From contig JAFRXI010000008.1 in NCBI GenBank assembly GCA_017437755.1, forward strand, positions 1 through 64,000: 64,000 nt of DNA, in the 5' to 3' direction. The notes under the pieces were generated by a model. That model saw only the letters and a list, made by a program, of their open reading frames with translations. It had not been told where the DNA came from and did not search any database. Origin of the DNA: Bacteroidales bacterium (GTDB lineage Bacteria > Bacteroidota > Bacteroidia > Bacteroidales > UBA932). Below are positions 5,093-26,109 of the stretch, piece after piece. How positions within the stretch are numbered: position 1 is the first letter of the stretch; the number at the start of each line of letters is the position of its first letter. Position numbers and translations under genes: made by a program.

Positions 5093-7117
5093 TTATTCTT
5101 CAACTACCAGTCTGCGGCAGCGCAGGTTGTGACCCTGCGAGCTGAAAGGCTGGACGTCAAATGTATAGTTGTAGTTCCCGGCCGTACTTGCGGTAGCGCC
5201 GGAACCGTTGATCAGGCACCTGCGGAACAGGTTGTCCATATTGTACCTGCTGTCCACGAAGTAAGCCCAGTAAACGACCCTTGAGCCTACCAGGGAGTAC
5301 TTCCCGGATCCCAGATATCCCGCCGCGGGGTTCCAGAGCAGGTTCTCGCTTGCGTCTGTGTAGTATATACCGGCAAAGCTCACGTCGCCAAGAGCCTTGT
5401 ATCCCCACGTTGTCCTTGCCGACTGGTATATGTGCGTTGCAGTAGGCATCACATAACCCTGGGGGCAGGGATCGTAGTCGTTCTCCTTTTCGGTTGCCGA
5501 GTTGCTGGTCTTCCAGATATCCTGCAGTTCACCTGTAACCCCGCCTTTCAGTTTTACGGTTGTCCAGATGGTCTCATTCCCTGTTGTTATGGTTTTCCCG
5601 CTTGGATCCGTGAAAGTATACGTGACACTCGTCCCCTTATGGTACTGGTAATTGGGGAATTGTTCCTGCTCGGCAAGGGTGGCCTTGGCTCCGGCGGAGG
5701 TGACCATCCTGTGGCAGTAGTTTGAGAAACCGTACTGCAGCGCTATCCTGTGGGAAGTGAAAGCGGCGGTAGTGTTCTCGAACTTGGCCATCCTGGGATA
5801 GGGGATATGATTGCCGTACTGGTAATAGGTACCGGTGGATTCAAGCAGCTGCCCGGCGGTCATGTTCTGGATGTCCTCAATGGTCTGGGGAGCCCATGTG
5901 GAACCCACGTTGCGGTCCATAAGCGGCTGAGGCTGGTCGGTCTCGTCAATCAATATGTCATTGGGCTGGTCGGTAACCCAGATATGGAAATTCCACAGCA
6001 GGGTGGTCGCGGCGCCCTGGAGGTTCTGGTCGATGGCGATCAGTGCATTGCCTTCCTCGTTTTTACCTCCGTACAGGAAGGTCACAAGGTTGGTATTCTT
6101 GTCGAAGGTGATGTTGTTGACGAGAGTCTTTGACTCGCTCCATACCAGGTTGGCGGTCTTTGCGAGGTCAAAGGTGTCTCCAAGGATCTTCTGAGCGTGG
6201 AAACTGTAGGCCTGAGGCTCGTCGGAGGCAATCACCATGTAGCAGTTGGACCTTCCTCCCTTGTCCAGCGCAACGGGATCCCGAGGGAACAGTGAATCCA
6301 CATTGATGTCCTTGAGGGTCTTGACCTTGCCCCTTTCCACCACTATGTCGTTCTTTGAAATGACTGCGGCAGCCGTGCCGTCAGTGAACTCCAGGATGAG
6401 TTCGCTGTCCTTGTAGGTTGCCGGGGGAACGGCCACGATTATGCCCTTGGAGGTGCGCCCGAGCGGGATTTCCTGTCCCTGGACATTTGTGTAGGCAAAC
6501 TGGCCGGTACCGCTGCTCACCGTGCTCATTACCGGATAGGTAATGACGGGTGTGGAGGCGTTAACGTCTATGGAGGCCTTTCCGGTGAGGGCTATGGAGT
6601 TGATGGTGTTGCTCTTGAACGAGAGTTTCGAGAGCGTCTTGGCCCCGGTCAGCTGGAAGCGGATGAAGCCGCAGAGGTGGGTGAACTTGAGGATGTCGCC
6701 TTCCAGTTTGCCGAACATCGGGGCCGCCCCGTCGCCGATAGCCTGGCCGTCGGCCGAAAGCACCTGGTTGGTGGGCCTTGTCCAGGTTGCGGTATTCCCG
6801 CTGACGGTGAGTGCGGCTGACGGATAGATCACCCACTGGGTGTTCTCGGGAACCTCGAAAGTGGCGATTCCGCCTTCAAGGGAGGTCATTGCACAATTTG
6901 TGGTAGCGGCAGAGCCGTCCCAGGCAACCAGCTTGTCGTTCTCGTTCCACTTGAACTCGGTCTGGCCTTCGGAAAGGTTCACCCTGGAAAGGGGATCCTC
7001 CTCAGAGAGGACAGCCTTTACCGTTTTCATCTTGACGGGTGCAGGTGATTCGTTCTCGGTCACCTGGCAAGCGGCAATAGCCGCGAGTGCGATTGTTGTC
7101 AGTATTATCTTTTTCAT
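5093..7117 (-). CDS. Fimbrillin-like / FISUMP-like exported lipoprotein
   Basis: A 674-residue lipoprotein with signal MKKIILTTIALAAIAAC and lipidated Cys17. Residues about 25-270 look like a fimbrillin-type beta-sandwich region (FKWNENDKLVAWDG, then FTHLCGFIRFQLTGAKTLSK). The second half, from LLWNFHIWV through MDRNVGSTWAPQT and GTYYQYGNHIPYPR, to DYDPCPQGYVMPTATH, is the pattern of FISUMP-type domains found in Bacteroidetes surface proteins. It is the last gene of the SusCD/EEP operon, 12 bases after the 47-residue gene. The role is probably surface adhesion or ligand capture for the locus (inference). No enzymatic motif is seen. Confidence 0.75.
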   Translation of the reverse strand: MKKIILTTIALAAIAACQVTENESPAPVKMKTVKAVLSEEDPLSRVNLSEGQTEFKWNENDKLVAWDGSAATTNCAMTSLEGGIATFEVPENTQWVIYPSAALTVSGNTATWTRPTNQVLSADGQAIGDGAAPMFGKLEGDILKFTHLCGFIRFQLTGAKTLSKLSFKSNTINSIALTGKASIDVNASTPVITYPVMSTVSSGTGQFAYTNVQGQEIPLGRTSKGIIVAVPPATYKDSELILEFTDGTAAAVISKNDIVVERGKVKTLKDINVDSLFPRDPVALDKGGRSNCYMVIASDEPQAYSFHAQKILGDTFDLAKTANLVWSESKTLVNNITFDKNTNLVTFLYGGKNEEGNALIAIDQNLQGAATTLLWNFHIWVTDQPNDILIDETDQPQPLMDRNVGSTWAPQTIEDIQNMTAGQLLESTGTYYQYGNHIPYPRMAKFENTTAAFTSHRIALQYGFSNYCHRMVTSAGAKATLAEQEQFPNYQYHKGTSVTYTFTDPSGKTITTGNETIWTTVKLKGGVTGELQDIWKTSNSATEKENDYDPCPQGYVMPTATHIYQSARTTWGYKALGDVSFAGIYYTDASENLLWNPAAGYLGSGKYSLVGSRVVYWAYFVDSRYNMDNLFRRCLINGSGATASTAGNYNYTFDVQPFSSQGHNLRCRRLVVEE

Positions 7118-7129
7118 GCCTTGTCCTCC

Positions 7130-7273
7130 TTAGAATTCTTTTTCTTCCCCGTCGTCATAGACAATGGGCTCAAGCTGGCTGAAGCAGAAGGAGGCATCCA
7201 GCATAAGATCCCTGACAACAAGGGAAGGGGCCTCATACCCCTTCCCTTTGTAAAGTGTTGATTTTCTGTTCAT
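7130..7273 (-). CDS. 47-residue small protein with a Y-x-A-P motif (overlooked small gene)
   Basis: ATG at 7273 to TAA at 7130 gives 47 residues. The start is 2 bases after the stop of the 817-residue lipoprotein gene, and the stop is 12 bases before the start of the FISUMP-like gene, so it fills the only wide gap of the operon's distal part. It begins MNRKSTLYKGKGYEAPSL and ends in LEPIVYDDGEEKEF: a basic start, a YEAP motif, a short hydrophobic middle (VVRDLMLDASFCF) and a very acidic tail. There is no signal peptide or membrane helix. From memory, Bacteroidales genomes contain small proteins of this style (basic start, YxxP/YEAP, acidic end) beside fimbrillin-type genes, but their function is unknown to me. 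Confidence 0.65.
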   Translation of the reverse strand: MNRKSTLYKGKGYEAPSLVVRDLMLDASFCFSQLEPIVYDDGEEKEF

Positions 7274-7275
7274 TA

Positions 7276-9729
7276 CTATTTATTGTAACGTATTGCGAAG
7301 TATTCCAGGTTGCTTGCGTGGGCAGCCGCTGAATTGCCGCTGAGGGTTGATCCGGAGTAATTGGACCCGTCGCTGCAGGCGTCGCTTGTAGGACGGAGGC
7401 GGATGTACACGTTCTCATGCCCCAGGATCTCCAGCGGAAGTTCAAAGTCGATGGGCTTGAACTGGACGTTGGAGGAGATGAGGGTGTTACCCCAGACGCA
7501 GACGTCGGGAATGGTGTAGTCCCCGATAGTATGCCACTGGGAATCGTCCTTGGGTTCCATGCTGTCTATCAGCGACCATTCGGCCCTCCAGAAACGGGGG
7601 GAATAGAATGACTGCTGGGTATTCATCACGGAAATCTGCATGGAGATATGGTCGGTGGATATACCCTCGGTGGAAAAATTGATGATCCAGGCATGGGGGC
7701 GGTTGGTATCATAGTCCCACCAGTAGTGCGATGCGAAGGAAGTATAGCAGGCTCCGTAGACATTGCTCTTCCCGCACATAGACGTGCTGTGGTTGTTGAT
7801 TCCGCCCGCTCCGCGGGAGCTGTTGTTTACTGCGTCCTTGCTGGTTGCATAAGGGCCGCACCACTCGATCGTGCCGTCGGGATTGTAGCTCACGAGGGAC
7901 GACAGTGCGGTGTGCTCGGTGTCAAAGTGCTCCTTTGCGGGATCTATGACGATACCGCATCCGTTATGGTTGCCCCAGTTGTCGCCGAACAAATAGTTCA
8001 CGTTGTTGCCCATGGGGCCCAGGTAGATGTAAGTACCGCCGCCCCACATATGCTGACTTAACGCGGTCTGGAGATATTCCTTGGCGGGATCGTGGGTGTA
8101 TTTCTCCTGATAGGTGTGGGTCAGCCATCCGTTCTCGCCGTAGGTGGGCAGGCAGATCTGTCTCTCAATGTCGGGATACCAGTAGCGGTACTCGGTGAGG
8201 AGGGCGGAGAAACTGTCTTCCACACTGTCGTTCATCTGGCTCCAGATATCCTCCTTGTTCTGGTGGCGAAGCTCATAACGGCCGATGTTTCCGAGGGTTA
8301 CGTCATCTTCAATGTCAGCCAGGTCGGCATCTTCCTTCCAGTCGAAACGGGAATGGCGCTCATGTACTATCACACCGCTTATCTTTCCGGATCCGTAGGG
8401 AAGGCGGGTACCATCGTTACGGTAGCGGCAGACGGTGTTGGTGAGGATGTACATGTGGTCGGCGTTGATGTCCCTGAGAAGGATAGGCGCCTTTGACAGG
8501 TAGTTGGCGTTGGTGGCGAGGGTATAGCCCTCATTCACCGGGGCGAGTGCTCCCTTGCGGACCGGAAGCTCCACGTCCAGCAGGGTCACATAAGTGTAGA
8601 GGTCGTCGTCGGTGAGCTCGTTCATGTGCTTTTCCTTCAGGGGAACGTCGCCCTTGCTTCCGGCCACCTGTGAGATGACCATGTTCTTGGTGATGTCTTT
8701 GACATTGATCCTGTCGGGCTCGCTGAGAAGGTCGGCGGTAGCTCCGTGAAGCAGTATCTGGACCTTGTCGTACTGCTTGAAGATGTTGTCGTCGGAGGTC
8801 TTTGTTACGAGCATCGCTCCCATGAGACCCTTCTCCGGCTCTTCAAGGTAGACGGTCCTTTCACTGACGGTGTAGTCGATGGCCGAGGCGCTGATCTGCT
8901 CGTTCTCTCCGGCATTTCCGCCCTCGGTGTTGCTCACCACGATACCTTCAAGGACCACATAGTCCTCTATCACCTTTCCGGTTGCATAGACGTCTTTCAG
9001 TTCCTTGAATGTGATCGCTTCTCCAATCCCTTCCTTGGCGTTCCGCTGGACGATGTTGAGGTTGACTTCCACCTCGTCTCCCCAGCCGTCGGTGTAGGAA
9101 ATGACTACGGAAGCGGTGCGCGGGGTCTTCTCGTTGGTGTTTGGATCCGTGTTGATGATGAGTTCATGGGAGTTTCCCATCACGGTGTTGTCGTCGATGG
9201 TGATGTCTTTTATCCAGTCGGGATCAGACTCGTGAGGGTAAGTCTTCACCACCTTCATGTAGGAGAACGGGATGTTGGTGTTCACGTAGTCCACCGTTTC
9301 ACCGCCGGCTCCGGGGATGATTATGGAGGTGTTCTCCTTGCTTAGGGCGGCCGGAAGGGCTCCTTCCTGCTTGAGGGAGACGGTATCCTTGCGCTCGTCC
9401 ACGTCGCTGCACAGGACGATCCGGCTCATCCTCTTGAACTCCTCGTTCATGGTGACGGTGGCGTTGATCACGCCGTCGCCGTTACCGGAAGTCCTGTCAA
9501 GGGATACCCAGGGCGCATTGTCCAGGGACTCGATATGGTAGGCTCCGTTGGAGTATACCTGGATTTCTATGGCGCCGCCGTCCTCGTCGATAATGTATTC
9601 CTTCTGAAGCGAACCCAGTTCCACCAGTGCAACCTCGGTTGCGTCGTCGTAGTCGCAGGCGGTGAAAAGCGCCGCAGCTGCGAGGGAAAGGACCGCTGAT
9701 TTGAGTATGTTGATGTTTTTCATATCCAT
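7276..9729 (-). CDS. BACON / DUF5689 lipoprotein (A)
   Basis: An 817-residue exported lipoprotein with lipobox Cys25 (LFTAC). An alternative start at codon 3 gives the same mature protein. Residues about 40-125 form a BACON-type domain (WVSLDRTSGNGDG, then DTVSLKQEG), with a second BACON-like repeat to about 235. From ITFKELKDVYATGKVIEDY to about 460 lies a DUF5689-type domain. The C-terminal third (WWDYDTNRPHAW to VYIRLRPTSDACSDG) looks like a beta-sandwich binding module ending in NLEYFAIRYNK. It sits downstream of SusD and is probably a surface-exposed ligand-binding accessory protein. It is paralogous to the next gene upstream in the operon, 3 bases away. Confidence 0.8.
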   Translation of the reverse strand: MDMKNINILKSAVLSLAAAALFTACDYDDATEVALVELGSLQKEYIIDEDGGAIEIQVYSNGAYHIESLDNAPWVSLDRTSGNGDGVINATVTMNEEFKRMSRIVLCSDVDERKDTVSLKQEGALPAALSKENTSIIIPGAGGETVDYVNTNIPFSYMKVVKTYPHESDPDWIKDITIDDNTVMGNSHELIINTDPNTNEKTPRTASVVISYTDGWGDEVEVNLNIVQRNAKEGIGEAITFKELKDVYATGKVIEDYVVLEGIVVSNTEGGNAGENEQISASAIDYTVSERTVYLEEPEKGLMGAMLVTKTSDDNIFKQYDKVQILLHGATADLLSEPDRINVKDITKNMVISQVAGSKGDVPLKEKHMNELTDDDLYTYVTLLDVELPVRKGALAPVNEGYTLATNANYLSKAPILLRDINADHMYILTNTVCRYRNDGTRLPYGSGKISGVIVHERHSRFDWKEDADLADIEDDVTLGNIGRYELRHQNKEDIWSQMNDSVEDSFSALLTEYRYWYPDIERQICLPTYGENGWLTHTYQEKYTHDPAKEYLQTALSQHMWGGGTYIYLGPMGNNVNYLFGDNWGNHNGCGIVIDPAKEHFDTEHTALSSLVSYNPDGTIEWCGPYATSKDAVNNSSRGAGGINNHSTSMCGKSNVYGACYTSFASHYWWDYDTNRPHAWIINFSTEGISTDHISMQISVMNTQQSFYSPRFWRAEWSLIDSMEPKDDSQWHTIGDYTIPDVCVWGNTLISSNVQFKPIDFELPLEILGHENVYIRLRPTSDACSDGSNYSGSTLSGNSAAAHASNLEYFAIRYNK

Positions 9730-9732
9730 GGA

Positions 9733-12195
9733 TTAATTATAACGGACGGTAATGGTACCTATACGTATCTCGGTTGCCTTGTCGGTAAGGGTTCCCTTCT
9801 CGATACCGAGGTTCTCCAGATATGTGTCGGCTGCGGTGCCCGGCTTGATATCGGTCACCTTGTCGGCAACCTGGAGGCGGAGAACCACCTTGTCCTTGCC
9901 GAAGCACTCGTCAGGGAGCTTGCGGAGATGGTCCTTGAAACCAGGGCAGGAATCCTGTGAAGTGGTTGTCCACCAGACAATCGAGCGGTTCTTGATCATG
10001 TCGCCGGGAACTGGCTTGAACTCTCCTCCGTCAATTGAGTAGAGCAGGTTCCAGTGGGCGGGCGAGTCAAGGGTGGTATTGCCCATGGCTCCGTGGTTCC
10101 ATACTATCCCGAAGATCATGTTGCTTCCGGAAATACCTGAAGTCGAGAAGCTTACATCGATGTATTCACCCTTGTCCTCGGCAAAGTTCCACCATTTCTT
10201 TGTCAGCTTCAATGCTGCGTTGGGAACAAGGCCCTTCTGGGACCCGTCGTAAGGCTGCATGCTGTTGAAGTCTGAGGCGGCAGCTGTGGTTGCACCGTAC
10301 ACGTTGAGGGTACCGCTGCCGATTTCAGGAGTAGTATCGGTAACCTTGTTGTTCCAGTTCCACTCCACGATGGTCTTTGAGAAGGCCGGATTCTCAAGCT
10401 GGATGTCGTTCTTTTCAAGGGGACGGATCTTATACCTTCCGAGTTCGCCGTAACGGACAAGTTCCTCGGCGGTGATGATTCCCCTGTAGGTTCCGGAACC
10501 CTGGGCCACGATCTCGGTGCCGTTCCCGTAGACGCTTCCGTTCCTTCTCCAATTCACCCGCGCATTGGTAAGCATGTAGATTACATTGCCGCTCTTGTCG
10601 CTCATGAGGAGTGGTGCGGTGTCCCATCTGGGGGAAGTGGTACCTGCGGTGGGGTTGACGCCCGGGTCCTTATAGGAATAGCCGTCGGTGGCGTTGGTAT
10701 AGCAGCCGTCCTTGCACATGATTTCAATGTCCTGGAGGGAAACCATGGTAAAGATGTCATCGTCGGTAAGTTCGGCGATGCTCCTCTTCTTGGCAGGCAC
10801 GTTGAACTCGTCGGGCTCGCCGATGGTCTCGATGATGTTTCCGGCGGTGAGTCCCCTGAGGGTGAAGCAGAGGGGATCGGCCTGCCTTTCAAGGGTGAGG
10901 CCGTTGATCCCTATCCTTACCCTCTGCCAGCGCTTGGTGACATTGTCCTCGCGGGTGTTGAACTTGAGGCAGAAACCGTATTTACCGTCCGTGCTCTCGA
11001 TGTAGGCGGTCTTGTCGTTCTCATCGAAGTCGAACTTGAACTGGGCTGTCTGCAGATTCTGGCAGACATTTGCGCTGGCAGGATCGCTGACGATATACCC
11101 TTCTATGAACTTGTCGGCGCTGAGGGTTCCGGCAGGCATAGACCTCACTTCCTGGAACGATATGGCGCTGGGGTAGGAAAGCTGGGTCACAGTGTAGCTG
11201 ACGGAAAGCATGGTACCGTTGCCGTCGTTGAACGTAGCTGTGACATCGGCGTTCCTGGGTGAGCCGGTATCGTTGGTGGAAACGGTGAAGTTGAGACCGT
11301 TCTTGTCAAGGGAAACATCTGATATCCAGTCGGCTCCGCTCTGGCAGCTGATGAACTGCGTATAAGGGAATACGTTGTTGGTAGGGGTGTCGATGGTATA
11401 GTTCGAGCTGAATCCGCTGTACTGTCCCGAATCGCTTTCGAGGGTGAGTGCGGCTTCCTCCAGGCCCTGGGTGATGGTCTGGCGGCTGTCGTAAACGGTT
11501 CCGTCGGCGGCATCCACCTTGATGGTGAGGACGGCGAAGCGGGCTTCACCGGTGTTGTTCTCATCCACGTTGTACTTTACGCTGACATCGCTGGGATTCT
11601 CGCCCTGTACTATCTCCATGTTGCTGATCCATGGAGTGATGTGAAGGGTGTCGGGAATTTCCTCCCCGGCGGTCACGACGCCCAGGGACTCGTTATAGGC
11701 ATCAAAGAATTCCACGCTGGGGACGATCATGTCCGTCCCGTAAATCATCGAAGTGCTGACGGGGGAGTTCACTGAATAGCCATTGCGGAGCAGGGTGAGG
11801 GCGGAAGTCTTGAAATTGAGGGAGGCGTTGTCACCCGTGGTGGTGCCTGCCTGGACAAGTTTGATGGTGTCCTTCAGGCTTCCCTTGGTGAGGATGAGGT
11901 CCACGCTCCTTGCCACGCCGAAGTTCTTGGCGTACTTGAAGACAATGTCGTTGTTGCCCTCGCCCGATAGTTTGTTGAGGGATCCCCAGCCGATGGTCTT
12001 CCCGAACGAAGCCGTCCACGGGCCGTCGGCCCACACCATGATGTGTGTGGAACCTGCCTCGGCGCTGAGCGACACCTTGTGGGAATTCACTGCAAGGGGA
12101 AGGTCCATCTCAAAGGGCCTGTCGCAACCGATGGCCCAAAGCATCGCACCTGCGGCGATGAGGGCTGTCCTTATTATATGTTTAATTCCTTTCAT
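9733..12195 (-). CDS. BACON / DUF5689 lipoprotein (B)
   Basis: An 820-residue lipoprotein (lipobox WAIGC, Cys24) with the same domain order as its neighbour. Two or three BACON-like repeats occupy the first 340 residues (VSLSAEAGSTHIMVWADGPW, SVDLILTKGSLKDTIKLVQAG). DUF5689 begins at AISFQEVRSMPAGTLSADKF (about 345). The C-terminal beta-sandwich contains KGEYIDVSFSTSGISGSNM and ends in RIGTITVRYN. DUF5689 is known next to EEP nuclease domains in exported Bacteroidetes proteins, which fits the four EEP genes of this operon. Two related binding lipoproteins after one SusD suggest recognition of different parts of one polymer, or of two substrates (inference). Confidence 0.8.
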   Translation of the reverse strand: MKGIKHIIRTALIAAGAMLWAIGCDRPFEMDLPLAVNSHKVSLSAEAGSTHIMVWADGPWTASFGKTIGWGSLNKLSGEGNNDIVFKYAKNFGVARSVDLILTKGSLKDTIKLVQAGTTTGDNASLNFKTSALTLLRNGYSVNSPVSTSMIYGTDMIVPSVEFFDAYNESLGVVTAGEEIPDTLHITPWISNMEIVQGENPSDVSVKYNVDENNTGEARFAVLTIKVDAADGTVYDSRQTITQGLEEAALTLESDSGQYSGFSSNYTIDTPTNNVFPYTQFISCQSGADWISDVSLDKNGLNFTVSTNDTGSPRNADVTATFNDGNGTMLSVSYTVTQLSYPSAISFQEVRSMPAGTLSADKFIEGYIVSDPASANVCQNLQTAQFKFDFDENDKTAYIESTDGKYGFCLKFNTREDNVTKRWQRVRIGINGLTLERQADPLCFTLRGLTAGNIIETIGEPDEFNVPAKKRSIAELTDDDIFTMVSLQDIEIMCKDGCYTNATDGYSYKDPGVNPTAGTTSPRWDTAPLLMSDKSGNVIYMLTNARVNWRRNGSVYGNGTEIVAQGSGTYRGIITAEELVRYGELGRYKIRPLEKNDIQLENPAFSKTIVEWNWNNKVTDTTPEIGSGTLNVYGATTAAASDFNSMQPYDGSQKGLVPNAALKLTKKWWNFAEDKGEYIDVSFSTSGISGSNMIFGIVWNHGAMGNTTLDSPAHWNLLYSIDGGEFKPVPGDMIKNRSIVWWTTTSQDSCPGFKDHLRKLPDECFGKDKVVLRLQVADKVTDIKPGTAADTYLENLGIEKGTLTDKATEIRIGTITVRYN

Positions 12196-12205
12196 GTCCT
12201 TTCAA

Positions 12206-13726
12206 TTAGAGGCCGTATGCGTTATAAGCCTTGTTGTCAAGGTTGTATTTGGATTTGATGACCTCCTGCTCGGGGATTGGGTAGTATTCGTGGCAGGGGA
12301 GTATGTTGTTCTGGAGGGCGGTGTAGTCGGTGTTCGACGAGGTCTCGTCGTACCAGATACCCCAGCGGACAAGGTCGAACTTGCGCTGGAACTCGCCAAA
12401 CAGCTCGCGGGCGCGCTCGTTGCGGATTTCTGCCATGAGGCGGAGGGGCGTACGGAAGGTGTATTCGCCGAGTCCGGCCCTGATGCGGGTCTTGTTGAGG
12501 TATTGCACCGCCAGCTCGTTCTCATTGGTGTTGGCATAGCACTCGGCCTTCATCAGCATGGCGTCGGCGTAGCGGAAGACCTTGTAGTTGTTGCCGTCGG
12601 CAGTCTGCACCATTCCGGGGCACCAGAACTTGGGACCGCACCAGGGGCGGGGAGTGATGCTGGCGAACTCATGGCCGTCGTATTCCCATGCCATGTTGTA
12701 GTTCTTGCGGATATCCTTGCCGCGGCGGGTCTGGAGACCCTGGCAGAACACCACGTTGGGACGCATCGCCGCCCATGCGGTGGCTTCGTTCCCGAGTTCG
12801 GAAACGTCCACGCCGGCGTAGATGCTGGTTCCGGTGGTCCTTGGAGTAGGCATGCAGATGGCCGCCACGTTGGAGGTGTAGCTTATACCGCCCCTGACAT
12901 ATTCATGCTGGATCTCCAGGATGGATTCCGGGGTGTTCTTGTTGCGGAACATGGCGTTCTCGGCATAGTCGTACTGCGAGAAGTCTCCGTAGATCTCCTC
13001 GAGGTGCCCGATTGCGTCGATGGCCGTTTCCCACTGCCGGTTCCACATGGCCATCTTTGCTATGAGCATCCAGGCGCAGGCGGCGCCGAGCCTGTGGTTC
13101 TCGTTGTCGGAGGTGCGGGTCTGGGGAACCAGCGGGGCGATTGCCTTGAGGTCCTCGATCAGGGTGTTGCGGGTTTCCACGGCGCTCATCCTGGGCAGGA
13201 GGGCTATGCGGTCCAGCGTCTCCAGGTCGTTGATGTCGTCAAAGTAGAACGGAACGTCGCCGAAGAAGCAGGTGAGGGTGTAGTAGTAGAACGCCCTGAG
13301 CACCTTTGCCTCGCAGAGAAGGAGGTTCAGTTTTGAGTTGGTGGTGTCGAGTTCCCCGTTTTCGTCCATGAAGACCTTGGAGTTCTCGATACCCTTGATT
13401 GCGAAATTGCACCTTTGGACGCCCGTATAGCACTGTGTCCAGACTGTCTGTCCGTGGCGCGGTGTGGCCGGGGAGATGTCAAGACGTGCGTCGAGTGTTC
13501 CGGAAGGGCAGTAGGCGATGTCCGTGCAGCACTCGGTGGCGAGCATGTATGTATAGGTGTAGAAATTCTTCATCGGGATGTAGCAGCTGTTTATCACCTG
13601 CTGGCACGAAGCCGCCGAGTCGAAGGAGTTGTCCGGCGTGGCTATGACGGAAAGGTCTTCCTTAAGGGAGCATCCTGCAAGCAGTGCTGCGCCTGCCAAT
13701 GAGAGAAGTATGTGTCTTGCTTTCAT
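12206..13726 (-). CDS. SusD/RagB family outer-membrane lipoprotein
   Basis: A 506-residue surface lipoprotein (signal MKARHILLSLAGAALLAGC, Cys19). It has the usual SusD layout: an N-terminal helical TPR-like scaffold (CYTGVQRCNFAIKGI, LCEAKVLRAFYYYTLTCFFG) and the C-terminal family signature ELFGEFQRKFDLVRWGIWYDE. It would act as the ligand-capturing lid on the SusC transporter encoded 13 bases upstream. The substrate cannot be inferred from SusD itself. The operon's other enzymes suggest a phosphodiester-containing molecule. Confidence 0.95.
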   Translation of the reverse strand: MKARHILLSLAGAALLAGCSLKEDLSVIATPDNSFDSAASCQQVINSCYIPMKNFYTYTYMLATECCTDIAYCPSGTLDARLDISPATPRHGQTVWTQCYTGVQRCNFAIKGIENSKVFMDENGELDTTNSKLNLLLCEAKVLRAFYYYTLTCFFGDVPFYFDDINDLETLDRIALLPRMSAVETRNTLIEDLKAIAPLVPQTRTSDNENHRLGAACAWMLIAKMAMWNRQWETAIDAIGHLEEIYGDFSQYDYAENAMFRNKNTPESILEIQHEYVRGGISYTSNVAAICMPTPRTTGTSIYAGVDVSELGNEATAWAAMRPNVVFCQGLQTRRGKDIRKNYNMAWEYDGHEFASITPRPWCGPKFWCPGMVQTADGNNYKVFRYADAMLMKAECYANTNENELAVQYLNKTRIRAGLGEYTFRTPLRLMAEIRNERARELFGEFQRKFDLVRWGIWYDETSSNTDYTALQNNILPCHEYYPIPEQEVIKSKYNLDNKAYNAYGL

Positions 13727-13739
13727 GTTCTTTCCCTTT

Positions 13740-16835: not shown

Positions 16836-16847
16836 CTATGTGTCTTT

Positions 16848-17966
16848 TTAGTTTGAACTGTCTGTCTGAAGCGGTGCCGGTCCAAGGAGGTTGTCCTTTC
16901 CGCTGCCGCCGTTTGCGAGGAAGAGGTCCTCGTCGCCGTTTTTCTCCACTATCTTCCGGATATAGACGTTGTCTATGAATATCCGGTTGGGGGTTCCGGT
17001 CGCAGCCGGGTCACCTGCGGTGAAGCGGATGCGGGTGTTGCCGGTAAACGGATTCTTGGGCAGGGAAACGATCCCGAGGAGATATTCCGACCCCCACCAG
17101 AAGTTGGCGGGATAGTTCTCCGATGTGATGTCGGCTCCGGGAACGTCGAATTCCATGACGGTCTCGCCGTTGTCGCGGAAAGCTCCTCCGCCGATTATCT
17201 CGACGGTGAGTTTCCCGTTGTCCCTGTGTCCTTCCAGGTCGCTGTAGGTGACGGCACGGAACGATACCACTGCAAGGGAGTCGTTCCTTATGTCATCCAC
17301 GAACGGGGTGTGGATTACGGCGCCGTGTCCCTCGTCGTCGCCCAGCTGGATGAATCCGTTCTTGCCGAATACGGCAGGTTTGTATTCCTTTGCCTCATCC
17401 GGGTCGGTGGGAACGGGAAGCCATCCCCTTTCCCTGTCGGTGAGGATCCAGGAAGCAAACGGGATTCCGTCCAGTTTCCTGGGGTCGGAGGTGCCGTACT
17501 TGGCCCATGAGAAATCGTTGGAAAGGCGGGCCAGGAGTCCCTGGTGCACGTCTACGTAGCATCCGAGACTCTTCTCGGGGGCGCTCAGAAGCAGCATTCC
17601 GCTCCTTCTGGTGTAATAGCCGTATGTGGAGCGGGGCTTGACCTCAAGGGTGACCTCATAGAGGTCGTCACCTTTCTTCTCCACAGCCGTCACCTTGCCC
17701 CAAGGCGAGGTAAGCTCGTCCTGCCATGAAGCGGTGAACTCTACGTTCGCCTTAACCGGCAGTTTCACCTCGCCGCCCATTACGGGAACGCTCACCCACG
17801 TGGATGGCTCCTCGTCTTCAAGGCTCCTGTAAAATTCGATGTACTCCTTGCGGTCGGCGTTGGGGTCGTCCTTCCGGCAGGAAGGGAGCGACACTCCGGC
17901 GGCCAATACCGCGCCCAGGAGGGCACCGAGGCGGACAAGGTCTCTTAAAGTGTTACTGTTTGACAT
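16848..17966 (-). CDS. Lipoprotein of unknown function in the SusCD/EEP locus
   Basis: A 372-residue lipoprotein with a long n-region and lipobox SLPSC (Cys30). It is beta-rich with no recognised catalytic motif. An N-terminal Ig/BACON-like stretch (WVSVPVMGGEVKLPVKANV) precedes a jelly-roll-like C-terminal module ending in RIFIDNVYIRKIVEKNGDED, similar in style to the binding module of the 829-residue EEP protein encoded upstream. Its place between EEP enzymes and SusC suggests a surface binding protein. I do not recognise the family. Confidence 0.65.
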   Translation of the reverse strand: MSNSNTLRDLVRLGALLGAVLAAGVSLPSCRKDDPNADRKEYIEFYRSLEDEEPSTWVSVPVMGGEVKLPVKANVEFTASWQDELTSPWGKVTAVEKKGDDLYEVTLEVKPRSTYGYYTRRSGMLLLSAPEKSLGCYVDVHQGLLARLSNDFSWAKYGTSDPRKLDGIPFASWILTDRERGWLPVPTDPDEAKEYKPAVFGKNGFIQLGDDEGHGAVIHTPFVDDIRNDSLAVVSFRAVTYSDLEGHRDNGKLTVEIIGGGAFRDNGETVMEFDVPGADITSENYPANFWWGSEYLLGIVSLPKNPFTGNTRIRFTAGDPAATGTPNRIFIDNVYIRKIVEKNGDEDLFLANGGSGKDNLLGPAPLQTDSSN

Positions 17967-17981
17967 AAATAATGTGATTGG

Positions 17982-20471
17982 TTATTTTGTAAGATCGAAA
18001 TCAACGAGTATAGGACGATGGTCGGAAGGGTCGTAGAAGGAACTTACGAACTTGCTCTTGACCGGATACACCCACTTGTCGCCAAGTATCAGTGCGTTGA
18101 CCACCTTGTCCATAAGGCCTGATGAGACGTACACGTAGTCTATCCTGGCGGTACCTCCGGTCGATGAGACCAGGTTGTCCGGGGCGGGGTAGCATTCGGC
18201 GATGACGTCCTTTAGCTGGGTCTTGTTCAGGACCACGTCCTGCGTGAGCAGGCGGGTGTCGTTTTCAGGGTAACCGTAATACCAGTTGTCCTTCCTGGAG
18301 CGGGAGTTCATGTCGCCAAGCAGCATCCAGTCGGAGACCGACGAATACTTGGAGTTGTTTATGGTCTGGGCTACGATGTATTCCATCTCGAATTCACGGT
18401 AGTAGTCGCCCTCGTTCCTCGCGGCGCTGGCATCCCTGTTGGCGGTGGCGACCCCGTAGCCGTAGGCCTGGGGCCACATGTGGCAGGTTACCAGGTTCAG
18501 CAGCCGTCCATTCACGTTAACCTGCTGGATGGCGGCCCCGTGAGCTATGGGCTTGCCGCTGACATTGGAGTCGGTGATCTTCAGGAGGGTGGTGATAGGA
18601 TACTTTGAGGTAACTTCCTGGGGGTAGTTGTCCCTGAATCCTCCCAGGGCGGAGTAGTTGTGCCCGTAACGTGCCGCCAGGGCTGCCCATCCGTTGGGGA
18701 GGAACCTCTTGGACGTGCTCTCGCTTGTGCTGGTGTTGTCCTTGTATATCGAGGAGGCCTCGCACCAGACGCAGATGTCGGGGTCGTATTTCCTGACAAA
18801 CGCAACGAAGTTGTCGTAATTGTTGGCCTGGTCGGACCACATCCCGTTCTGGATGTTCCAGTACAGCAGGCGGAGGTTGCCCTTGCGGCCAGACCCCGGG
18901 ACGGAGCGGACGGTGATGTCGTCGATGTAGATTCCGTGGACGCCGCTGCCTGAGTCGTTCCCGGCGATGTAGAGCCTGGTGCCGTCGGTGGCGTTTGTCA
19001 GTGTGAGTTCAATGTTGTGCCAGGTCTTTGAAGCACTCTCGGCGGGTATGGTGACGCTCCTGTGGCCCACTATCTTCACCGAGGCGTTGGCCGAGTAGTT
19101 CTGCTTGAAATCCACAGGTGAACCGTCTATCTTGCAGGAAGTTATATATCCGGCATTGATCACCTGGACCAGCATGTCGTCGGTGGCGCCGGCCATGAAG
19201 CAGAAATTGAAGGAGATGGTTGCGTCGGTGATTCCCTGAAGGTTGCCTATGGGCGGGGTCTGCATTATTCCGCGTCCCTGGTTTCCGCAGCCTATTGCCA
19301 GTATCCCGTGGTATTCCTGGCAGCGGAAAAGGTAGAACCAGTCGCGGATGTTGCGGCTGTCTATGTAGGATTCGCTCATAACATGGGAGGAGGCGACCCC
19401 TATACCGTTCACTTCATCCCAGGTGTTTGACTGAATGAAGCCGGTCCCCGGATTGTTGTACTCCACGGCCTTGAAGGCGTCGGCATAGCCGTCGCGTCCG
19501 GTACCGTCAGAAATGCCTATCTTGTTGGCGTCGGGGGAGAAACCCGTGGAGCCGGAACCACCCATTATGTTTCCGCCCCACACAAAGTTGTCGAAGCCCT
19601 CGTACCAGACTATGTCGCTTTCCGGGGAATAGGAGACGTTCTCGGTGACCACGGTGCCGGGCTTGATCGCACCCGGAGTGATGGTCTTGCGCATCATCCT
19701 GTGGTTGGAATCGCAGATGGTAAGCTCCAATCCCTGCCTGAGCGAGGACTGGTTGAGGATGACCGGTACCGTTACGGGCGACTCTCCGAGTTTGACGAAT
19801 TTCCCGTTCTCGGTGCAGTTCACCACTGCCTGGTCCAGCCCGGTGGTAATGTTGAGGTTTCCCTTGCTCGGCTGGAAAACGGCGAGTCCGGCGATGTTGT
19901 CACCGCCAAGGGCCCTGACTTTCACCGAGCAGAGGGAACCCTCGCCGGAGATGACGAGCTTCAGTATGGAAACCGCGTCGCTGAAGGCCAGCAGGTTCCC
20001 GGTACTTTCAGAATATGAGGCGTATCTGGGGTAGTCCTTGAAAGAGGCCCTGGTGGCGCTGAAAAACTGCGAAAACGGGACAGCGACGTCCTTGAAAGCG
20101 CTGGACCCGTACCATTTCTGGGAATTCCTGGTGACGAGCACGGCGTTGTATACATTGTTGTTTACCGCAGTGACGTCGATGTACCAGTTGCCGCCGGTAT
20201 CTTTCTGGAGCATGTAATCCGACCCGTTCACGTTGACCTTGAATCCCGTGAAGTCGTCGGCCTTGAGCCCCATGGCATCCCTTACTGCCGAGGTCTCTCC
20301 GGCGGCGGTAATAAAGAAACGGACCTTTCCGTCGACCACTTCTATCGGAGCGCCGAATTTTGAATTATCTCCGTTATCTCCGTTTCCACCTTTTTCGGGA
20401 TCCACTCCCTTGCACGATAAAGCCGTGGCAATCAGCAAGAAAACCGGGACGAAGGACTTAAATACAGTCAT
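17982..20471 (-). CDS. Large lipoprotein with binding module and C-terminal EEP hydrolase domain
   Basis: 829 residues, lipidated at Cys20 (TALSC). After a low-complexity linker there are beta-rich domains (about 45-285), then a jelly-roll-like module (about 285-525) ending in GIYIDDITVRSVPGSGRKG. The C-terminal endonuclease/exonuclease/phosphatase domain (532-829) keeps every catalytic position: Asn539 (YWNIQNG), Glu571 (CVWCEAS), His664, Asp720/Asn722 (LLGDMNS), Asp778 (RIDYVYV) and Asp817/His818 (SDHRPI). These enzymes cleave phosphodiester or phosphomonoester bonds in nucleic acids, sphingomyelin or inositol phosphates. The exact substrate is not readable. A 65-base gap upstream may carry an internal promoter. 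Confidence 0.85.
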   Translation of the reverse strand: MTVFKSFVPVFLLIATALSCKGVDPEKGGNGDNGDNSKFGAPIEVVDGKVRFFITAAGETSAVRDAMGLKADDFTGFKVNVNGSDYMLQKDTGGNWYIDVTAVNNNVYNAVLVTRNSQKWYGSSAFKDVAVPFSQFFSATRASFKDYPRYASYSESTGNLLAFSDAVSILKLVISGEGSLCSVKVRALGGDNIAGLAVFQPSKGNLNITTGLDQAVVNCTENGKFVKLGESPVTVPVILNQSSLRQGLELTICDSNHRMMRKTITPGAIKPGTVVTENVSYSPESDIVWYEGFDNFVWGGNIMGGSGSTGFSPDANKIGISDGTGRDGYADAFKAVEYNNPGTGFIQSNTWDEVNGIGVASSHVMSESYIDSRNIRDWFYLFRCQEYHGILAIGCGNQGRGIMQTPPIGNLQGITDATISFNFCFMAGATDDMLVQVINAGYITSCKIDGSPVDFKQNYSANASVKIVGHRSVTIPAESASKTWHNIELTLTNATDGTRLYIAGNDSGSGVHGIYIDDITVRSVPGSGRKGNLRLLYWNIQNGMWSDQANNYDNFVAFVRKYDPDICVWCEASSIYKDNTSTSESTSKRFLPNGWAALAARYGHNYSALGGFRDNYPQEVTSKYPITTLLKITDSNVSGKPIAHGAAIQQVNVNGRLLNLVTCHMWPQAYGYGVATANRDASAARNEGDYYREFEMEYIVAQTINNSKYSSVSDWMLLGDMNSRSRKDNWYYGYPENDTRLLTQDVVLNKTQLKDVIAECYPAPDNLVSSTGGTARIDYVYVSSGLMDKVVNALILGDKWVYPVKSKFVSSFYDPSDHRPILVDFDLTK

Positions 20472-20502
20472 TATACGTAGTTATTATTATGTTATTAGCA
20501 AA

Positions 20503-20510
20503 CAAAAATA
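20503..20510 (-). promoter_or_regulatory. Possible internal promoter -7 box in the EEP operon
   Basis: TATTTTTG on the minus strand lies 31 bases before the start of the 829-residue EEP gene, within the widest early gap of the operon. No TTG is found at the right spacing, so confidence is low. If active, it would allow SusCD expression independently of purA. Confidence 0.3.
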
Positions 20511-20536
20511 AGCAAAAAAAACAATAAAGTGTAACT

Positions 20537-21799
20537 TTATAACCGGATATCTGCATAGTTTGGATAGTGGTCGGTCACCGGGACCAGGAACCATGCATAC
20601 ATGCGGTGGAAGGTCCTGATTTCCGTGCTGCCGCCGTTGAACATGACAAACTGGTCTATGGAATCGCGACCATTGTCCTTGGTGGTGGAACTGCGGGAGA
20701 ACCCGTCCGGGAAGCAGTAGTGGTGGCCGCCCCTCCTGTCGCCGAATACGGTGGCGGCGTCCCAGGCAGGAACGTATCCCGCGTCGATCATCTGTTTCAT
20801 CGCCTTTGAGGTGAAACGGCAGTTGAGGTCGCCCATCACGAAGACGGGCCCTCCTCCCGCCAGCACGTAGTCGTCGGCGGCGGTCATGATTTTCCGCATC
20901 TGGGCCTCGCGGGCGTAGTTGCTGCCCGGCTGGGCCTTCTCGCTCTTCCACCAGAGGTGGGTGTTGATGACCATGAATTCCTTTCCGGTGGCGTTGTGGC
21001 GGAAAGTGCCGCTGCAGTAGCTTTTGGAACCGTGGTTGCTCCATGGCTTTTCGGGCTCATAGCGGTGATACTTGCTGTCTACCAGCGTAAGCGCGTCGGA
21101 CTTGTAGAAAACCGGGGTCCAGTTCCACATTTCAGCCTTTGCAGGGTAGGCCAGGACATATCCCTTCTCCTCGAGCGAAGGCCTCATCAGCGGATCCATG
21201 TATGTGGAATACTCCTGAAGGCAGATTATGTCGGGCATAGTTGCCCATACCACTTCCAGCAGCGCCCTCACCCTCACTTCGTCGCGGCAGTCAAAGCCGG
21301 TTCCTTCCCACTGGGGGGAATTGTAGGGCTTTCCCCAGTTCCATATATTGTCGTCCAGGATGCGCAGGTTGCTCACGGAATCCCTTGGGAAGATCATCTC
21401 ACCGTAGATATTGCCCTCTTCAGGTTTTGAAGGGACCCTTTCCGAGAGCCGGGATGCCGCCCTGGCAAGTGCCCAGCAGCCACCTCCCTGTACCAGCACC
21501 TTGCTTCCCTTCCTGGCAAGCCTCCAGTCGAAGGTGTCGGGCGATGCGGCATAGAAGGGTCCGGATTCGGGCCGGTTGGTCCTGCCGATGAGTATTTCAT
21601 GTCTGACTGCCGGAGCCTCGTCGGAAACCACCGGCAGTTCCATCCCGACCGCCTTGTTTACAAGGGCCGCGATCTCCGTACCTTCTTCGGCCTCGGCTCC
21701 GGCGGGATAGACTATCACATATCCGGAAAGGTCCCCTCCGGCCCAAACGGATGAAACCGATAACCAAAAGAGAATCAGTGTCAGGAAAAACCTTTTCAT
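20537..21799 (-). CDS. Secreted EEP hydrolase with glycosidase-type N-terminal accessory domain (A)
   Basis: 420 residues with a signal peptide cleaved after VWA (residue 20) and no lipobox, so periplasmic or secreted. Residues about 25-120 (GYVIVYPAGAEAEEG, HEILIGRTNR, then GSKVLVQGGGCWALARAASR) resemble the accessory domain found before the catalytic domains of some GH20 and GH67 glycosidases (recognition from memory). The EEP domain (about 143-420) has Asn151, Glu196 (CLQEYS), His281 (NTHLWW), Asp324/Asn326 (VMGDLNC), Asp382 and Asp410/His411 (TDHYPN), so it appears active. It overlaps the upstream EEP gene by 4 bases and is its close paralogue. Confidence 0.85.
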   Translation of the reverse strand: MKRFFLTLILFWLSVSSVWAGGDLSGYVIVYPAGAEAEEGTEIAALVNKAVGMELPVVSDEAPAVRHEILIGRTNRPESGPFYAASPDTFDWRLARKGSKVLVQGGGCWALARAASRLSERVPSKPEEGNIYGEMIFPRDSVSNLRILDDNIWNWGKPYNSPQWEGTGFDCRDEVRVRALLEVVWATMPDIICLQEYSTYMDPLMRPSLEEKGYVLAYPAKAEMWNWTPVFYKSDALTLVDSKYHRYEPEKPWSNHGSKSYCSGTFRHNATGKEFMVINTHLWWKSEKAQPGSNYAREAQMRKIMTAADDYVLAGGGPVFVMGDLNCRFTSKAMKQMIDAGYVPAWDAATVFGDRRGGHHYCFPDGFSRSSTTKDNGRDSIDQFVMFNGGSTEIRTFHRMYAWFLVPVTDHYPNYADIRL

Positions 21800-23118
21800 A
21801 AAGCTATGTCTGTGTAATTTGGATAATGGTCGGTCAGCATGACCGTGAAGTAGGGTTGTATCCTCCAGAATGTAAGCACTTTGGAGGTGCCCATGTTATG
21901 TGCGAAAATGTAGTCTATCGCACTCATGCCGTCGTCTGGCTTGGTGGAGCTGCGGGAAAAGCCGTCGGCGGAGCACTGGTGGTGTCCGTTCCGTCTGTCG
22001 CCATATACGGTGGCGGCGTGCCATGCGGTGACGTATCCGGCATTGGTGAACTGCTTCAGGGCGGTGGAATTGAGGTTGCAGTTCATGTCGCCGGCAACGA
22101 ACACCGGACAGGCATACTTCTGCTCCAGTTCGGCAACCTTGGTTATGATGGATTTGGCCTGGGTTTCCCTGGCTGAGTTGCTGCCGGCCTGCACCGACTC
22201 GCTCTTCCACCACAGGTGGGTACTGAACACTATGAATGTCTTGCCCGTGGCTTTGTGCGTAAAGGCGGCCCACTGGTAGGATTTGCTGCCCGAATCGCTC
22301 CAGGAACTGTCATACCTGAGGTATCCCGAGTCTTTAAGGGTAAGGGTTGAGGTGCGATAGAAAACCGGTGTCCAGTTCCACTGGCTTCCGGGGGTGTAGG
22401 ACATGGCATATCCCCTGTCGGTGAGGATTTTGGACATGTAATCGTCATGCATGGACTTGTGGTATTCCTGCATGGTGAAGACGTCCGGCATGTAGGCGCA
22501 GATAATGGCCTCGAAGCCCCGCGAGCGGACCTTGTTGGTGCAGTCGGCGCCCACTGCCTCCCAGGCCGGGGCGTTTGCCTTTGTGTAGTTCCAGATGTTG
22601 TCGTCGAGGATCCTCAGGTTTGAGCCCTCCTCGGGAGGGAACAGCATCTTGCCGAATATGTTGCCCTTTTCCGACAGGGTGGTCTTCATGGGCGCGGACT
22701 TCATCCTGTCGACCGCCTTGTCCAGCGCCCAGCATCCGCCTGCCGCCGCGACTATCTTGCCACCGGAGTGGAAGAGGGCCCAGTCGAAGGTGTCGTGCGC
22801 TGCGGAGTACCACTGGACGGATTCCTTCCTGGAAGTGGGGCCTATGAGGATTTCCCGGGCCTTTTCCTGCACCTCGTCGGAAACGATCGGGAGTTCCTTT
22901 CCGGTCTTGGACTTGACCGCCGCCTTCATGGCCATGGCGGCGTCGCGTCCTTCCTCGGCCTCGGCTTCGTGGCTGAAGACGATCACATACTCCGACAGGT
23001 CAAGGGCATCGTTTTCAGGAACATCCGTGTTCCCGTTGCCGCCATCTTCCGGATTGCCCTTGGTGCAGCATGAAAGCAGCAGGACGATTGCTGTCAGAAC
23101 CAGCGATTTGACTTTCAT
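21796..23118 (-). CDS. EEP hydrolase lipoprotein with glycosidase-type N-terminal accessory domain (B)
   Basis: 440 residues from the ATG at 23118. A longer frame begins with TTG at 23136, but this ATG is 1 base after the upstream stop and starts a proper signal MKVKSLVLTAIVLLLSC (lipid at Cys17). Architecture matches the downstream gene: accessory domain about 43-140 (SEYVIVFSHEAEAEEG, REILIGPTSR, KIVAAAGGCWALDKAVDR), then EEP with Asn174, Glu218 (FTMQEYH), His301, Asp344/Asn346 (VAGDMNC), Asp402 (IDYIFAHN) and Asp430/His431. Unlike its sister it is membrane-anchored, so the pair may act at different sites, one at the surface and one in the periplasm or outside. Confidence 0.85.
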   Translation of the reverse strand: MKVKSLVLTAIVLLLSCCTKGNPEDGGNGNTDVPENDALDLSEYVIVFSHEAEAEEGRDAAMAMKAAVKSKTGKELPIVSDEVQEKAREILIGPTSRKESVQWYSAAHDTFDWALFHSGGKIVAAAGGCWALDKAVDRMKSAPMKTTLSEKGNIFGKMLFPPEEGSNLRILDDNIWNYTKANAPAWEAVGADCTNKVRSRGFEAIICAYMPDVFTMQEYHKSMHDDYMSKILTDRGYAMSYTPGSQWNWTPVFYRTSTLTLKDSGYLRYDSSWSDSGSKSYQWAAFTHKATGKTFIVFSTHLWWKSESVQAGSNSARETQAKSIITKVAELEQKYACPVFVAGDMNCNLNSTALKQFTNAGYVTAWHAATVYGDRRNGHHQCSADGFSRSSTKPDDGMSAIDYIFAHNMGTSKVLTFWRIQPYFTVMLTDHYPNYTDIAL

Positions 23119-23119
23119 T

Positions 23120-24298
23120 TCATTCAATGATCTCAAGTTCGGCTGTGATGGGGTAGTGGTCGGAAATGAACGGTATGTCCTGGAACTTCTCCTTCACCAC
23201 CCGGTATGAGAGGATGCGGTTGAATCCCTTGTGCCAGATGTAGTCGATGATCTTGCCTCCGGAACTGCTGTATCCGTTGTAGGTGGGTGAATTGTCGGTA
23301 ACGGCGGCGGTCAGCCTGGCATCGTTCATCACACCGATCAGGGGCGTGAGGCAACTGCTGGAAGGGGTGACGTTGAAGTCCCCGGTAAGGATGGCGGGAA
23401 GTCCGGATGGGTTGATTACGGCAAGTCTCTGGATGATCAGTTTCAGACCCTCCTCCCTTGCCTTGGTGCCCTTGTGGTCCAGATGGGTGTTGATGTGGAT
23501 GAACTTCTTCCCGGAAGCCTTGTGTGTGAAAACGCACCAGGTGGCGGTCCTCCTGCAGGCTGCGTCCCAGCCCAGGGAGCACTTGTCGGGAGTCTCTGAC
23601 AGCCAGAAGGTTCCGTGGTCCCCAAGGGTAAGCTGGTTCTTGTCGTAGAAGATGGCCATCATCTCTCCGGTGGTTCCGGTCTGGGCGTCACGGCCGATTC
23701 CGTAATAGGCGTAGTCCGTTGCATTCGAGGCTATATAGGAAACCTGGGCGGCCTTGGCTTCCTGGACGCCCATCACCAGGGGCTTCTCGGCCTTGAGCAT
23801 GGCGGGGAAGGCCACCTTGCGAACATCCCAGTTGTTGTTGGGATCGGTCTCGGAAGTTATCAGCCTCACGTTGAAGGACATTACCTTTAAGGTCCAGGTC
23901 TTGGCTTCGGCCTGGGTGCTGGAGGTGAGGTCCACCCAGGGCGATGCTTCCGCTCCCTCGGCGATGCACCTTATACGGAACAGGTATCCGGTATCGGGAG
24001 TCAGTCCTGAGAATGTCCAGGTGTCCAGGCCCCGGTTCAAAGTCTTTGTGGCCACGGGATTCCCTTCCTGGTAAGGAGTCTTGTAGAGATGCAGCTCATA
24101 CTGGGCCCCGTTCTGGGTTGTTACGTCCCATTTGAAAGTGAGCGAGGACGAGCCGGTTTTTTCAAGCATTACGCCCGTAGGGGCGGTCAGTACGGTGATT
24201 TCGGGATCATTGTCATCCTGGGGGGTAATCTCAGGTGCCGGCTTTTTGCATGCTTCAAGTGCGAGTGGCAGCAAAAAAGCCAAAACCAATTTCTTCAT
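23120..24298 (-). CDS. Fibronectin type III - EEP hydrolase lipoprotein
   Basis: 392 residues, lipidated at Cys17 (ALEAC). A fibronectin type III domain (about 36-132: PTGVMLEKTGSSSLTFKWDV, then GLTPDTGYLFRIRCIAEG) is followed by an EEP domain (about 136-392). All catalytic positions are present: Asn143 (VMSFNVR), Glu180 (GVQEAK), His272 (NTHLDHKG), Asp307/Asn309 (LTGDFNV), Asp352 (IIDYIWH) and Asp380/His381 (SDHYPI). It is the first accessory gene after purA, only 13 bases from the purA stop, so it may be read from the purA transcript. Its EEP domain is more classical than those of the two neighbours and could be the main endo- or exo-acting enzyme. Confidence 0.87.
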   Translation of the reverse strand: MKKLVLAFLLPLALEACKKPAPEITPQDDNDPEITVLTAPTGVMLEKTGSSSLTFKWDVTTQNGAQYELHLYKTPYQEGNPVATKTLNRGLDTWTFSGLTPDTGYLFRIRCIAEGAEASPWVDLTSSTQAEAKTWTLKVMSFNVRLITSETDPNNNWDVRKVAFPAMLKAEKPLVMGVQEAKAAQVSYIASNATDYAYYGIGRDAQTGTTGEMMAIFYDKNQLTLGDHGTFWLSETPDKCSLGWDAACRRTATWCVFTHKASGKKFIHINTHLDHKGTKAREEGLKLIIQRLAVINPSGLPAILTGDFNVTPSSSCLTPLIGVMNDARLTAAVTDNSPTYNGYSSSGGKIIDYIWHKGFNRILSYRVVKEKFQDIPFISDHYPITAELEIIE

Positions 24299-24311
24299 GT
24301 GTTATTATGTG

Positions 24312-25616: not shown

Positions 25617-25629
25617 TGTTCCTGGAATC

Positions 25630-26109
25630 TTAGAATGGAAGGTCGTCATCCGGAATATCCTGTCCCTGGACAGGTTGCGGAGCAGGGGCGGGCGCCGGAC
25701 GGGGTGCCTGTTGCCATCCCGGCTGCGGCTGGGCGTACGTGTTCTCCTGCTGGACGGGTGCGTCGGGACGGCGGCCCAGGAGCTGGAGGCTGTCAACCAC
25801 CACTTCGGTGGTGTATTTCTTCACTCCGGTCTGGTCCGTCCAGGAACGGGTGCGGAGGCGGCCCTCCACATAGATCTGGGAACCCTTCCGGATATATTTC
25901 TCGGCGATGTCGGCACTGTTGCGCCAGGCCACTATATTGTGCCATTCAGTGTTTTCGCGAAGTTCTCCGCCGCGGTCGCGGTACCTTTCAGTGGTGGCGA
26001 GGGTGAAGGATGCCACCTTTGCGTTCCCCTGTGATGAATTCTGCTCAAGATAACGTACCTCGGGGTCTCTTCCAACGTTACCGATCAGCATTACTTTGTT
26101 AAGTGACAT
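25630..26109 (-). CDS. ssb: Single-stranded DNA-binding protein
   Basis: 159 residues. An OB-fold covers about 1-105 (MSLNKVMLIGNVGRDPEVRY, WHNIVAWRNSADIAEKYIRKG, YVEGRLRTRSW), followed by a Pro/Gln/Ala-rich flexible linker and the acidic partner-binding tip DDDLPF. It binds ssDNA during replication and repair and recruits partners, including RecJ, whose gene heads the same run. It lies 45 bases downstream of aroE and 13 bases before purA. Confidence 0.96.
   Translation of the reverse strand: MSLNKVMLIGNVGRDPEVRYLEQNSSQGNAKVASFTLATTERYRDRGGELRENTEWHNIVAWRNSADIAEKYIRKGSQIYVEGRLRTRSWTDQTGVKKYTTEVVVDSLQLLGRRPDAPVQQENTYAQPQPGWQQAPRPAPAPAPQPVQGQDIPDDDLPF

Follow-up and report, generated by a model that had tools for sequence, protein, structure and literature searches.

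A conserved SusCD locus variant with an EEP-fold core enzyme and DUF5689 proteins in Bacteroidales

Gene content of the locus

The window analyzed here, a 64,000-nucleotide stretch of a Bacteroidales genome (GenBank assembly GCA_017437755.1, contig JAFRXI010000008.1), contains, between positions 5093 and 24298, ten open reading frames (ORFs) of 372 to 1031 amino acids (aa), all on the minus strand. In the order of transcription, they encode four EEP-fold hydrolases (EEP1, EEP2, EEP3 and EEP4), the lipoprotein g5, a SusC-type TonB-dependent transporter, a SusD-type substrate-binding lipoprotein and three further lipoproteins, g8, g9 and g10. The adjacency of susC and susD makes this a SusCD utilization locus, that is, a polysaccharide utilization locus (PUL) in the broad sense. 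It falls outside the strict definition, which calls for carbohydrate-active enzymes (CAZymes) in the locus: neither the ten genes nor ten flanking ORFs matched a CAZyme or sensor family in a Pfam scan, and the EEPs are the only recognized enzymes of the ten-gene locus.

The Exo_endo_phos domain (PF03372) scores above the cut-off in all four EEPs, which account for 4 of the 14 PF03372 matches in the genome. EEP1 (23120..24298) combines this domain with fn3 and has the lipobox-like N-terminus of a lipoprotein. EEP2 (21796..23118), also a predicted lipoprotein, carries the domain at its C-terminus; its ORF as listed spans 21796-23136, and the ATG at 23118 is a likelier start than the TTG at 23136. 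EEP3 (20537..21799) has a Sec-type N-terminus and is probably secreted. EEP4 (17982..20471) is a predicted lipoprotein of 829 aa with a C-terminal EEP domain (residues 536-818). The motif set N, QE/CE, H, GDxN, ID and [ST]DH, which we take to comprise the catalytic residues, is complete in each of the four, and in an alignment of EEP4 the eight catalytic columns are invariant in all 20 rows. EEP2 and EEP3 are paralogues (50-53% identity) whose genes overlap by 4 bp, so that the four-EEP cluster partly reflects tandem duplication. A GH20b-like N-terminal domain suspected in these two proteins was not supported.

The SusC-type transporter (13740..16835) contains the Plug, CarbopepD_reg_2 and TonB barrel domains of Pfam. 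The SusD-type protein (12206..13726) belongs to Pfam SusD and matched SusD-family entries only in a PDB profile search. Upstream of this pair, g5 (16848..17966) is a surface-type lipoprotein without a Pfam family, the relatives of which sit directly upstream of SusC. On the other side, g8 (9733..12195) is a BACON lipoprotein in which DUF5689 stays below the cut-off (E 1.4e-4), its Dysgonomonas counterpart being above it, and g9 (7276..9729) is a lipoprotein with both BACON and DUF5689 above the cut-off. No family exceeds the cut-off in g10 (5093..7117), which shows a sub-threshold lipoprotein signal only. These observations bear out the original prediction of ten same-strand genes with a SusCD pair, four EEPs with intact catalytic residues (three lipoproteins and one secreted protein), two BACON/DUF5689 lipoproteins and no glycosidase, lyase, sulfatase or sensor gene, with the qualifications that DUF5689 in g8 is sub-threshold, that localization is read from the N-termini, and that the absent families are those recognizable by Pfam in the ten genes.

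Conservation of the core in relatives

Named genomes were scanned with an alignment of g9, not of an EEP, which yielded 19 loci, titled mostly as uncultured Bacteroidales, several of them from the rumen. SusC and SusD matches are present in 18 of these. Leaving out L022, where the contig ends inside SusC, and L031, where no SusCD was found, 16 of the 17 decidable SusCD loci have a gene of the EEP4 clade within the block or next to it; the 17 are not independent, being mostly from close relatives, with L016 and L026 sharing one genome. In 15 loci (L013-L020 and L023-L029) this gene lies within the block or immediately precedes it, with the gene content of L018 taken from tblastn and the EEP of L029 present only as a fragment at the contig end; in L021, it lies downstream on the other strand, unlike its usual place. 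The clade itself is strongly supported (99/99; 23 rows, with one locus entered twice). One EEP clade is, then, conserved in linkage with SusCD, g8 and g9.

The other three EEPs of the window are not part of this pattern. Searches with tblastn (E 1e-8) gave no match to EEP2 or EEP3 in the 19 loci and matches to EEP1 in L024 and L031 only, as well as in the G041 locus L011, and EEP1-3 were not seen in six upstream stretches (L032-L037). Second EEPs do occur in L025 and L026 and differ from those of the window. Because synteny keeps the EEP4 clade only, we regard EEP4 as the core enzyme and EEP1-3 as additions; the four-EEP architecture appears to be lineage-specific as far as seen. The linkage of EEPs with SusCD that had been proposed from the window alone therefore holds for the EEP4 clade, with EEP1, EEP2 and EEP3 falling outside the core.

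The core extends to Dysgonomonas sp. 511 (L025), a member of another family than the window genome, with a SusD of 54% identity, where g5-like, DUF5689, SusC, SusD, EEP, g8-like, g9-like and second EEP genes share one strand. For its enzyme of the EEP4 clade, the exonuclease III model gives a full-length match below the cut-off (E 3e-17). The single locus without an EEP4-clade gene, L030 of Alistipes montrealensis, instead has an AP_endonuc_2 domain, which follows a region related (24%) to the N-terminal part of EEP4, and then an S1/P1 nuclease. The AP_endonuc_2 family also includes sugar isomerases, and a search for solved relatives of this region found none. Other enzymes beside the core are metallophosphatases after the EEP (L024 and L011) and a beta-lactamase-fold hydrolase (L027). 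Close counterparts of g10 occur in L013-L016 and L021 only, with a weak one in L026, among the 19 loci. Of 393 genomes in the order, 3, the window genome included, have SusD relatives at E 1e-60, with at most three candidates scored per genome; a plasmid search with SusD gave only distant matches, the ten listed (from a total of 41 records) all being below 28% identity.

Intergenic gaps within the locus range from -4 to 15 bp, except for 158 bp before g10 and 65 bp before EEP4. The latter gap (20472..20536, minus strand) is AT-rich and contains a -7-type element, TATTTTTG, with no good -33 element; it is a possible start of the core operon. No start could be assigned to the whole operon: purA, at 24312-25796 on the strand of the locus, stops just 13 bp before EEP1, and a search of this strand between 5 and 31 kb for strict Bacteroidales promoters gave none. 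Downstream of the locus lie two convergent MFS genes.

Further EEP genes were also noted. L013 (17363-20530), L015, L016, L021 and L033 contain a second EEP4-like gene, which encodes about 1050 aa including an additional N-terminal segment, and a uvrD-type helicase gene adjoins it in the three loci scanned (L015, L016 and L033). A Dysgonomonas SusCD locus (L080:2150-17280) holds three EEPs, an alkaline phosphatase, a GH130 and an MFS gene. On contig 29 of the window genome, an EEP gene (24131-24856) and a match to the phosphodiester glycosidase NAGPA (26092-26673) occupy opposite strands, separated by about 1.2 kb.

DUF5689 proteins and their neighbors

DUF5689 is widespread: 60 of the 118 phylum genomes scanned have it, as do 35 of 60 in the order. 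We compared 20 best-hit loci, chosen by hand from the 34 genomes in the order where DUF5689 exceeded the cut-off, with 20 control SusD loci, also picked by hand, from nine genomes at roughly even steps down the SusD list (6 of the 20 from G166). Of the best-hit loci, 16 of 20 have an EEP no further than about 9 kb away, as opposed to 2 of the 20 controls (Fisher p 1.7e-5, the sets being not fully independent); two of the four exceptions (L042, L046, L055 and L057), namely L055 and L057, are short contigs. A homologous outer-membrane protein of 900-1000 aa directly precedes DUF5689 in 20 of 20 best-hit loci, two query loci included, and in none of the 20 controls; its CarboxypepD_reg domain was demonstrated in two loci. 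This pair with a nearby EEP occurs across many Bacteroidales genera. The window genome has it on contig 34 (L058:8356-14756), where an Endonuclease_NS, an EEP (PF19580), a 993-aa CarboxypepD_reg outer-membrane protein and a DUF5689 protein stand in a row, the last of these matching the OB-fold nucleic-acid-binding family PF01336 below the cut-off (E 4e-5; 23.9 of 27 bits). In a profile comparison, the DUF5689 region of g9 aligns with the short DUF5689 proteins at 97% probability.

The association is looser in 20 hand-picked loci with a long form of DUF5689: an EEP is present in 6, 4 of which encode DUF5689-EEP fusions, and 3 have a protein distantly related to that outer-membrane protein. The fusions (L073, L074, L075 and L077) all match a type IX secretion system (T9SS) sorting domain, L075 below the cut-off, and the DUF5689 part of one matches the ExeM/NucH DNase model, also below the cut-off (E 5e-6). 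DUF5689 also exceeds the cut-off outside Bacteroidota, in the Bacillus subtilis control genome; the protein is possibly the nuclease YhcR.

Described systems offer two points of comparison. In Riemerella, a DUF5689 protein and its CarboxypepD_reg outer-membrane neighbor (RA0C_RS04915/RS04920) are essential for natural transformation, according to the part of PMC8459023 that deals with this pair. Judging by domains, the Riemerella and Bacteroidales pairs are probably akin, with an EEP nearby in most of the latter. Unlike both, the window locus couples DUF5689 to SusC/SusD, not to a non-SusC outer-membrane partner, has several EEPs, and is an accessory locus. For ExeM, the relevant part of PMC6085458 states that DNase activity requires an OB-fold-like region as well as the EEP domain. 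The combination of such a region, as in ExeM, with an EEP is a likeness to the extracellular nucleases, to which ExeM/NucH and the B. subtilis enzyme YhcR belong, and DUF5689-EEP fusions exist in Bacteroidota. In contrast to them, the window has DUF5689 and EEP on separate proteins beside SusCD, and its EEPs are far below the 300-bit cut-off of the ExeM/NucH model NF033681 (EEP2 30.2 and EEP3 22.4 bits; EEP1 and EEP4 not listed).

Candidate substrates

Taken together, these results suggest that the locus represents a conserved variant of SusCD loci whose substrate contains phosphodiesters and is most likely a polymer linked by phosphates. The EEP sequences themselves do not decide the substrate. 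Our preferred reading, to which we give close to an even chance, is an accessory operon that takes up, through SusCD, a phosphodiester polymer from outside the cell, most likely nucleic acid (DNA and/or RNA); it is favored over a phosphate-containing glycan mainly because of the DUF5689 evidence. The AP_endonuc_2 domain and S1/P1 nuclease of L030, the exonuclease III match of the Dysgonomonas enzyme, and a SusCD locus with an EEP and an S1/P1 nuclease on contig 14 of the window genome also speak for it. Under this model, g8 and g9, with their BACON and OB-fold-like DUF5689 domains, and perhaps g5 and g10, would hold the polymer at the surface, and surface-anchored EEP4 would cut its phosphodiester bonds; SusD would close over the fragments, SusC would import them with TonB energy, and EEP1-3, extra in this lineage, may trim phosphates or shorter fragments. 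The surface location, activity, substrate, transport direction and DUF5689 fold in this model are predictions from sequence. The nuclease/phosphatase-type utilization locus of the original prediction thus survives as the leading reading, through the conserved link of EEP4 with SusCD, with the evidence split between nucleic acid and phosphate-containing glycan; the inositol phosphates and phospholipids also proposed there as substrates received no positive support.

Several observations weigh against nucleic acid. The 18 genomes with core loci are rich in EEPs overall (9-24 each), and 9 of the family's 149 genomes have EEP4-type enzymes; in the window genome, EEP4-like EEPs occur on contigs 1 and 45. 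A PDB profile search with EEP4 gave partial matches only, in its C-terminal part, to LINE-1 endonucleases (best E 1e-10), and EEP4 has His at the position where AP endonucleases carry Tyr; PDB profile searches with g9 and DUF5689 returned no useful match. Fourteen of the 20 long-form DUF5689 loci, in which the length is nearer to that of g9, have no EEP. Endonuclease_NS is missing from all nine core loci that could be matched to contigs (the window, G041, G536, G537, G540, G542, G546, G547 and G548); in G536, the contig of the locus has one match at a distance of 28 kb. A one-strand SusCD locus on contig 14 of the window genome (L101:7079-18001) encodes a BACON-EEP protein and an S1/P1 nuclease together with a GH28 match.

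The remaining points of this kind are those that would be expected if the substrate were a phosphate-containing glycan, such as phosphomannan or a phosphodiester-linked capsular or teichoic-type polymer, with EEPs removing or splitting phosphates, oligosaccharides being imported and glycosidases encoded elsewhere. An EEP-fold enzyme can belong to a PUL: the yeast-mannan PUL of B. thetaiotaomicron contains a mannosyl-6-phosphatase. The closest solved relatives of EEP1 are 3g6s, 3mpr and that type of enzyme, 4c1r, so that by kinship and complete motifs EEP1 ranks as a putative mannosyl-6-phosphatase-type EEP, and it groups with the EEP of a Dysgonomonas SusCD locus carrying GH130 and alkaline phosphatase. 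A relative of EEP2 (40%) forms a DUF6528-EEP fusion in a same-genus genome (L004:12506-14305), within a GH29/GH95/sulfatase/DUF4861/KduI locus. On contig 45 of the window genome (L103:3-8754), the end of a SusD gene, a protein matching BACON and NAGPA, and an EEP4-like EEP lie together, and NAGPA has 8 matches genome-wide. In a second Dysgonomonas locus, a SusC-type gene (reading as two ORFs), SusD, EEP and DUF5689 are followed by GH3 and a GDSL esterase; therefore, DUF5689 with an EEP does not always mean nucleic acid. Finally, a GH20 gene adjoins the syntenic Dysgonomonas locus L025. It is probably a separate transcription unit, as judged from a promoter-like site in the 309-bp gap between the two (4 such sites in the 16-kb stretch versus 0.77 expected by chance), and no other CAZyme was seen next to the core in relatives, the flanks of which were partly scanned. 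The window locus shares with SusCD PULs the SusC/SusD pair, surface lipoproteins and co-directional genes, but it has no CAZyme or sensor and its EEPs stand as the only recognized enzymes; NAGPA has no match on the nine matched core contigs. On balance, we consider a glycan substrate a serious possibility, with a probability that is appreciable and clearly below even.

Scavenging of phosphorus from small phosphodiesters or phosphomonoesters (phospholipid head groups, inositol phosphates or nucleotides) seems improbable. The PusCD loci of Flavobacterium, as presented in the portion of PMC8115612 concerned with them, pair SusCD with phosphodiesterases and phosphomonoesterases in place of CAZymes, and the metallophosphatases of L024 and L011 would fit such a system. 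However, the enzymes named there (PhoA-type, and calcineurin-type phosphodiesterases pf00149/pf16670) are absent from the window locus, which instead has EEPs and BACON/DUF5689 proteins, and the large size of the latter suggests a polymer. PusCD loci (in the same portion of PMC8115612) and the mannan-PUL phosphatase are the closest described systems, and the tests made did not establish membership in either. Uptake of DNA for transformation instead of nutrition, suggested by the Riemerella pair, is very improbable: a separate set of EEP, outer-membrane protein and DUF5689 is already in place on contig 34, several degradative enzymes would be expected to destroy donor DNA, and the window locus is patchily distributed, as the small number of genomes with close SusD relatives indicates.

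Within the nucleic-acid reading, a more specific and somewhat more doubtful form is that the core operon serves gut and rumen Bacteroidales specifically to import extracellular nucleic acid as food through SusCD, with capture by OB-fold DUF5689 proteins, cutting by an EEP nuclease and uptake of oligonucleotides. SusCD systems are regarded mainly as importers of glycans, peptides being one exception. Organic phosphorus is another, by the account given in part of PMC8115612. A search of titles and abstracts, with subscription papers and preprints outside its scope, found no description of a SusCD-EEP-DUF5689 locus. DUF5689 is still listed in Pfam as a family of unknown function, and the pair of outer-membrane protein and DUF5689 with a nearby EEP points to a nucleic-acid role for this domain, independently of the substrate of the window locus. 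If the present reading is true, a SusCD family with an EEP core enzyme and DUF5689 binders would extend the substrate range of these importers to phosphodiester polymers, and feeding on nucleic acids by gut Bacteroidales becomes testable.

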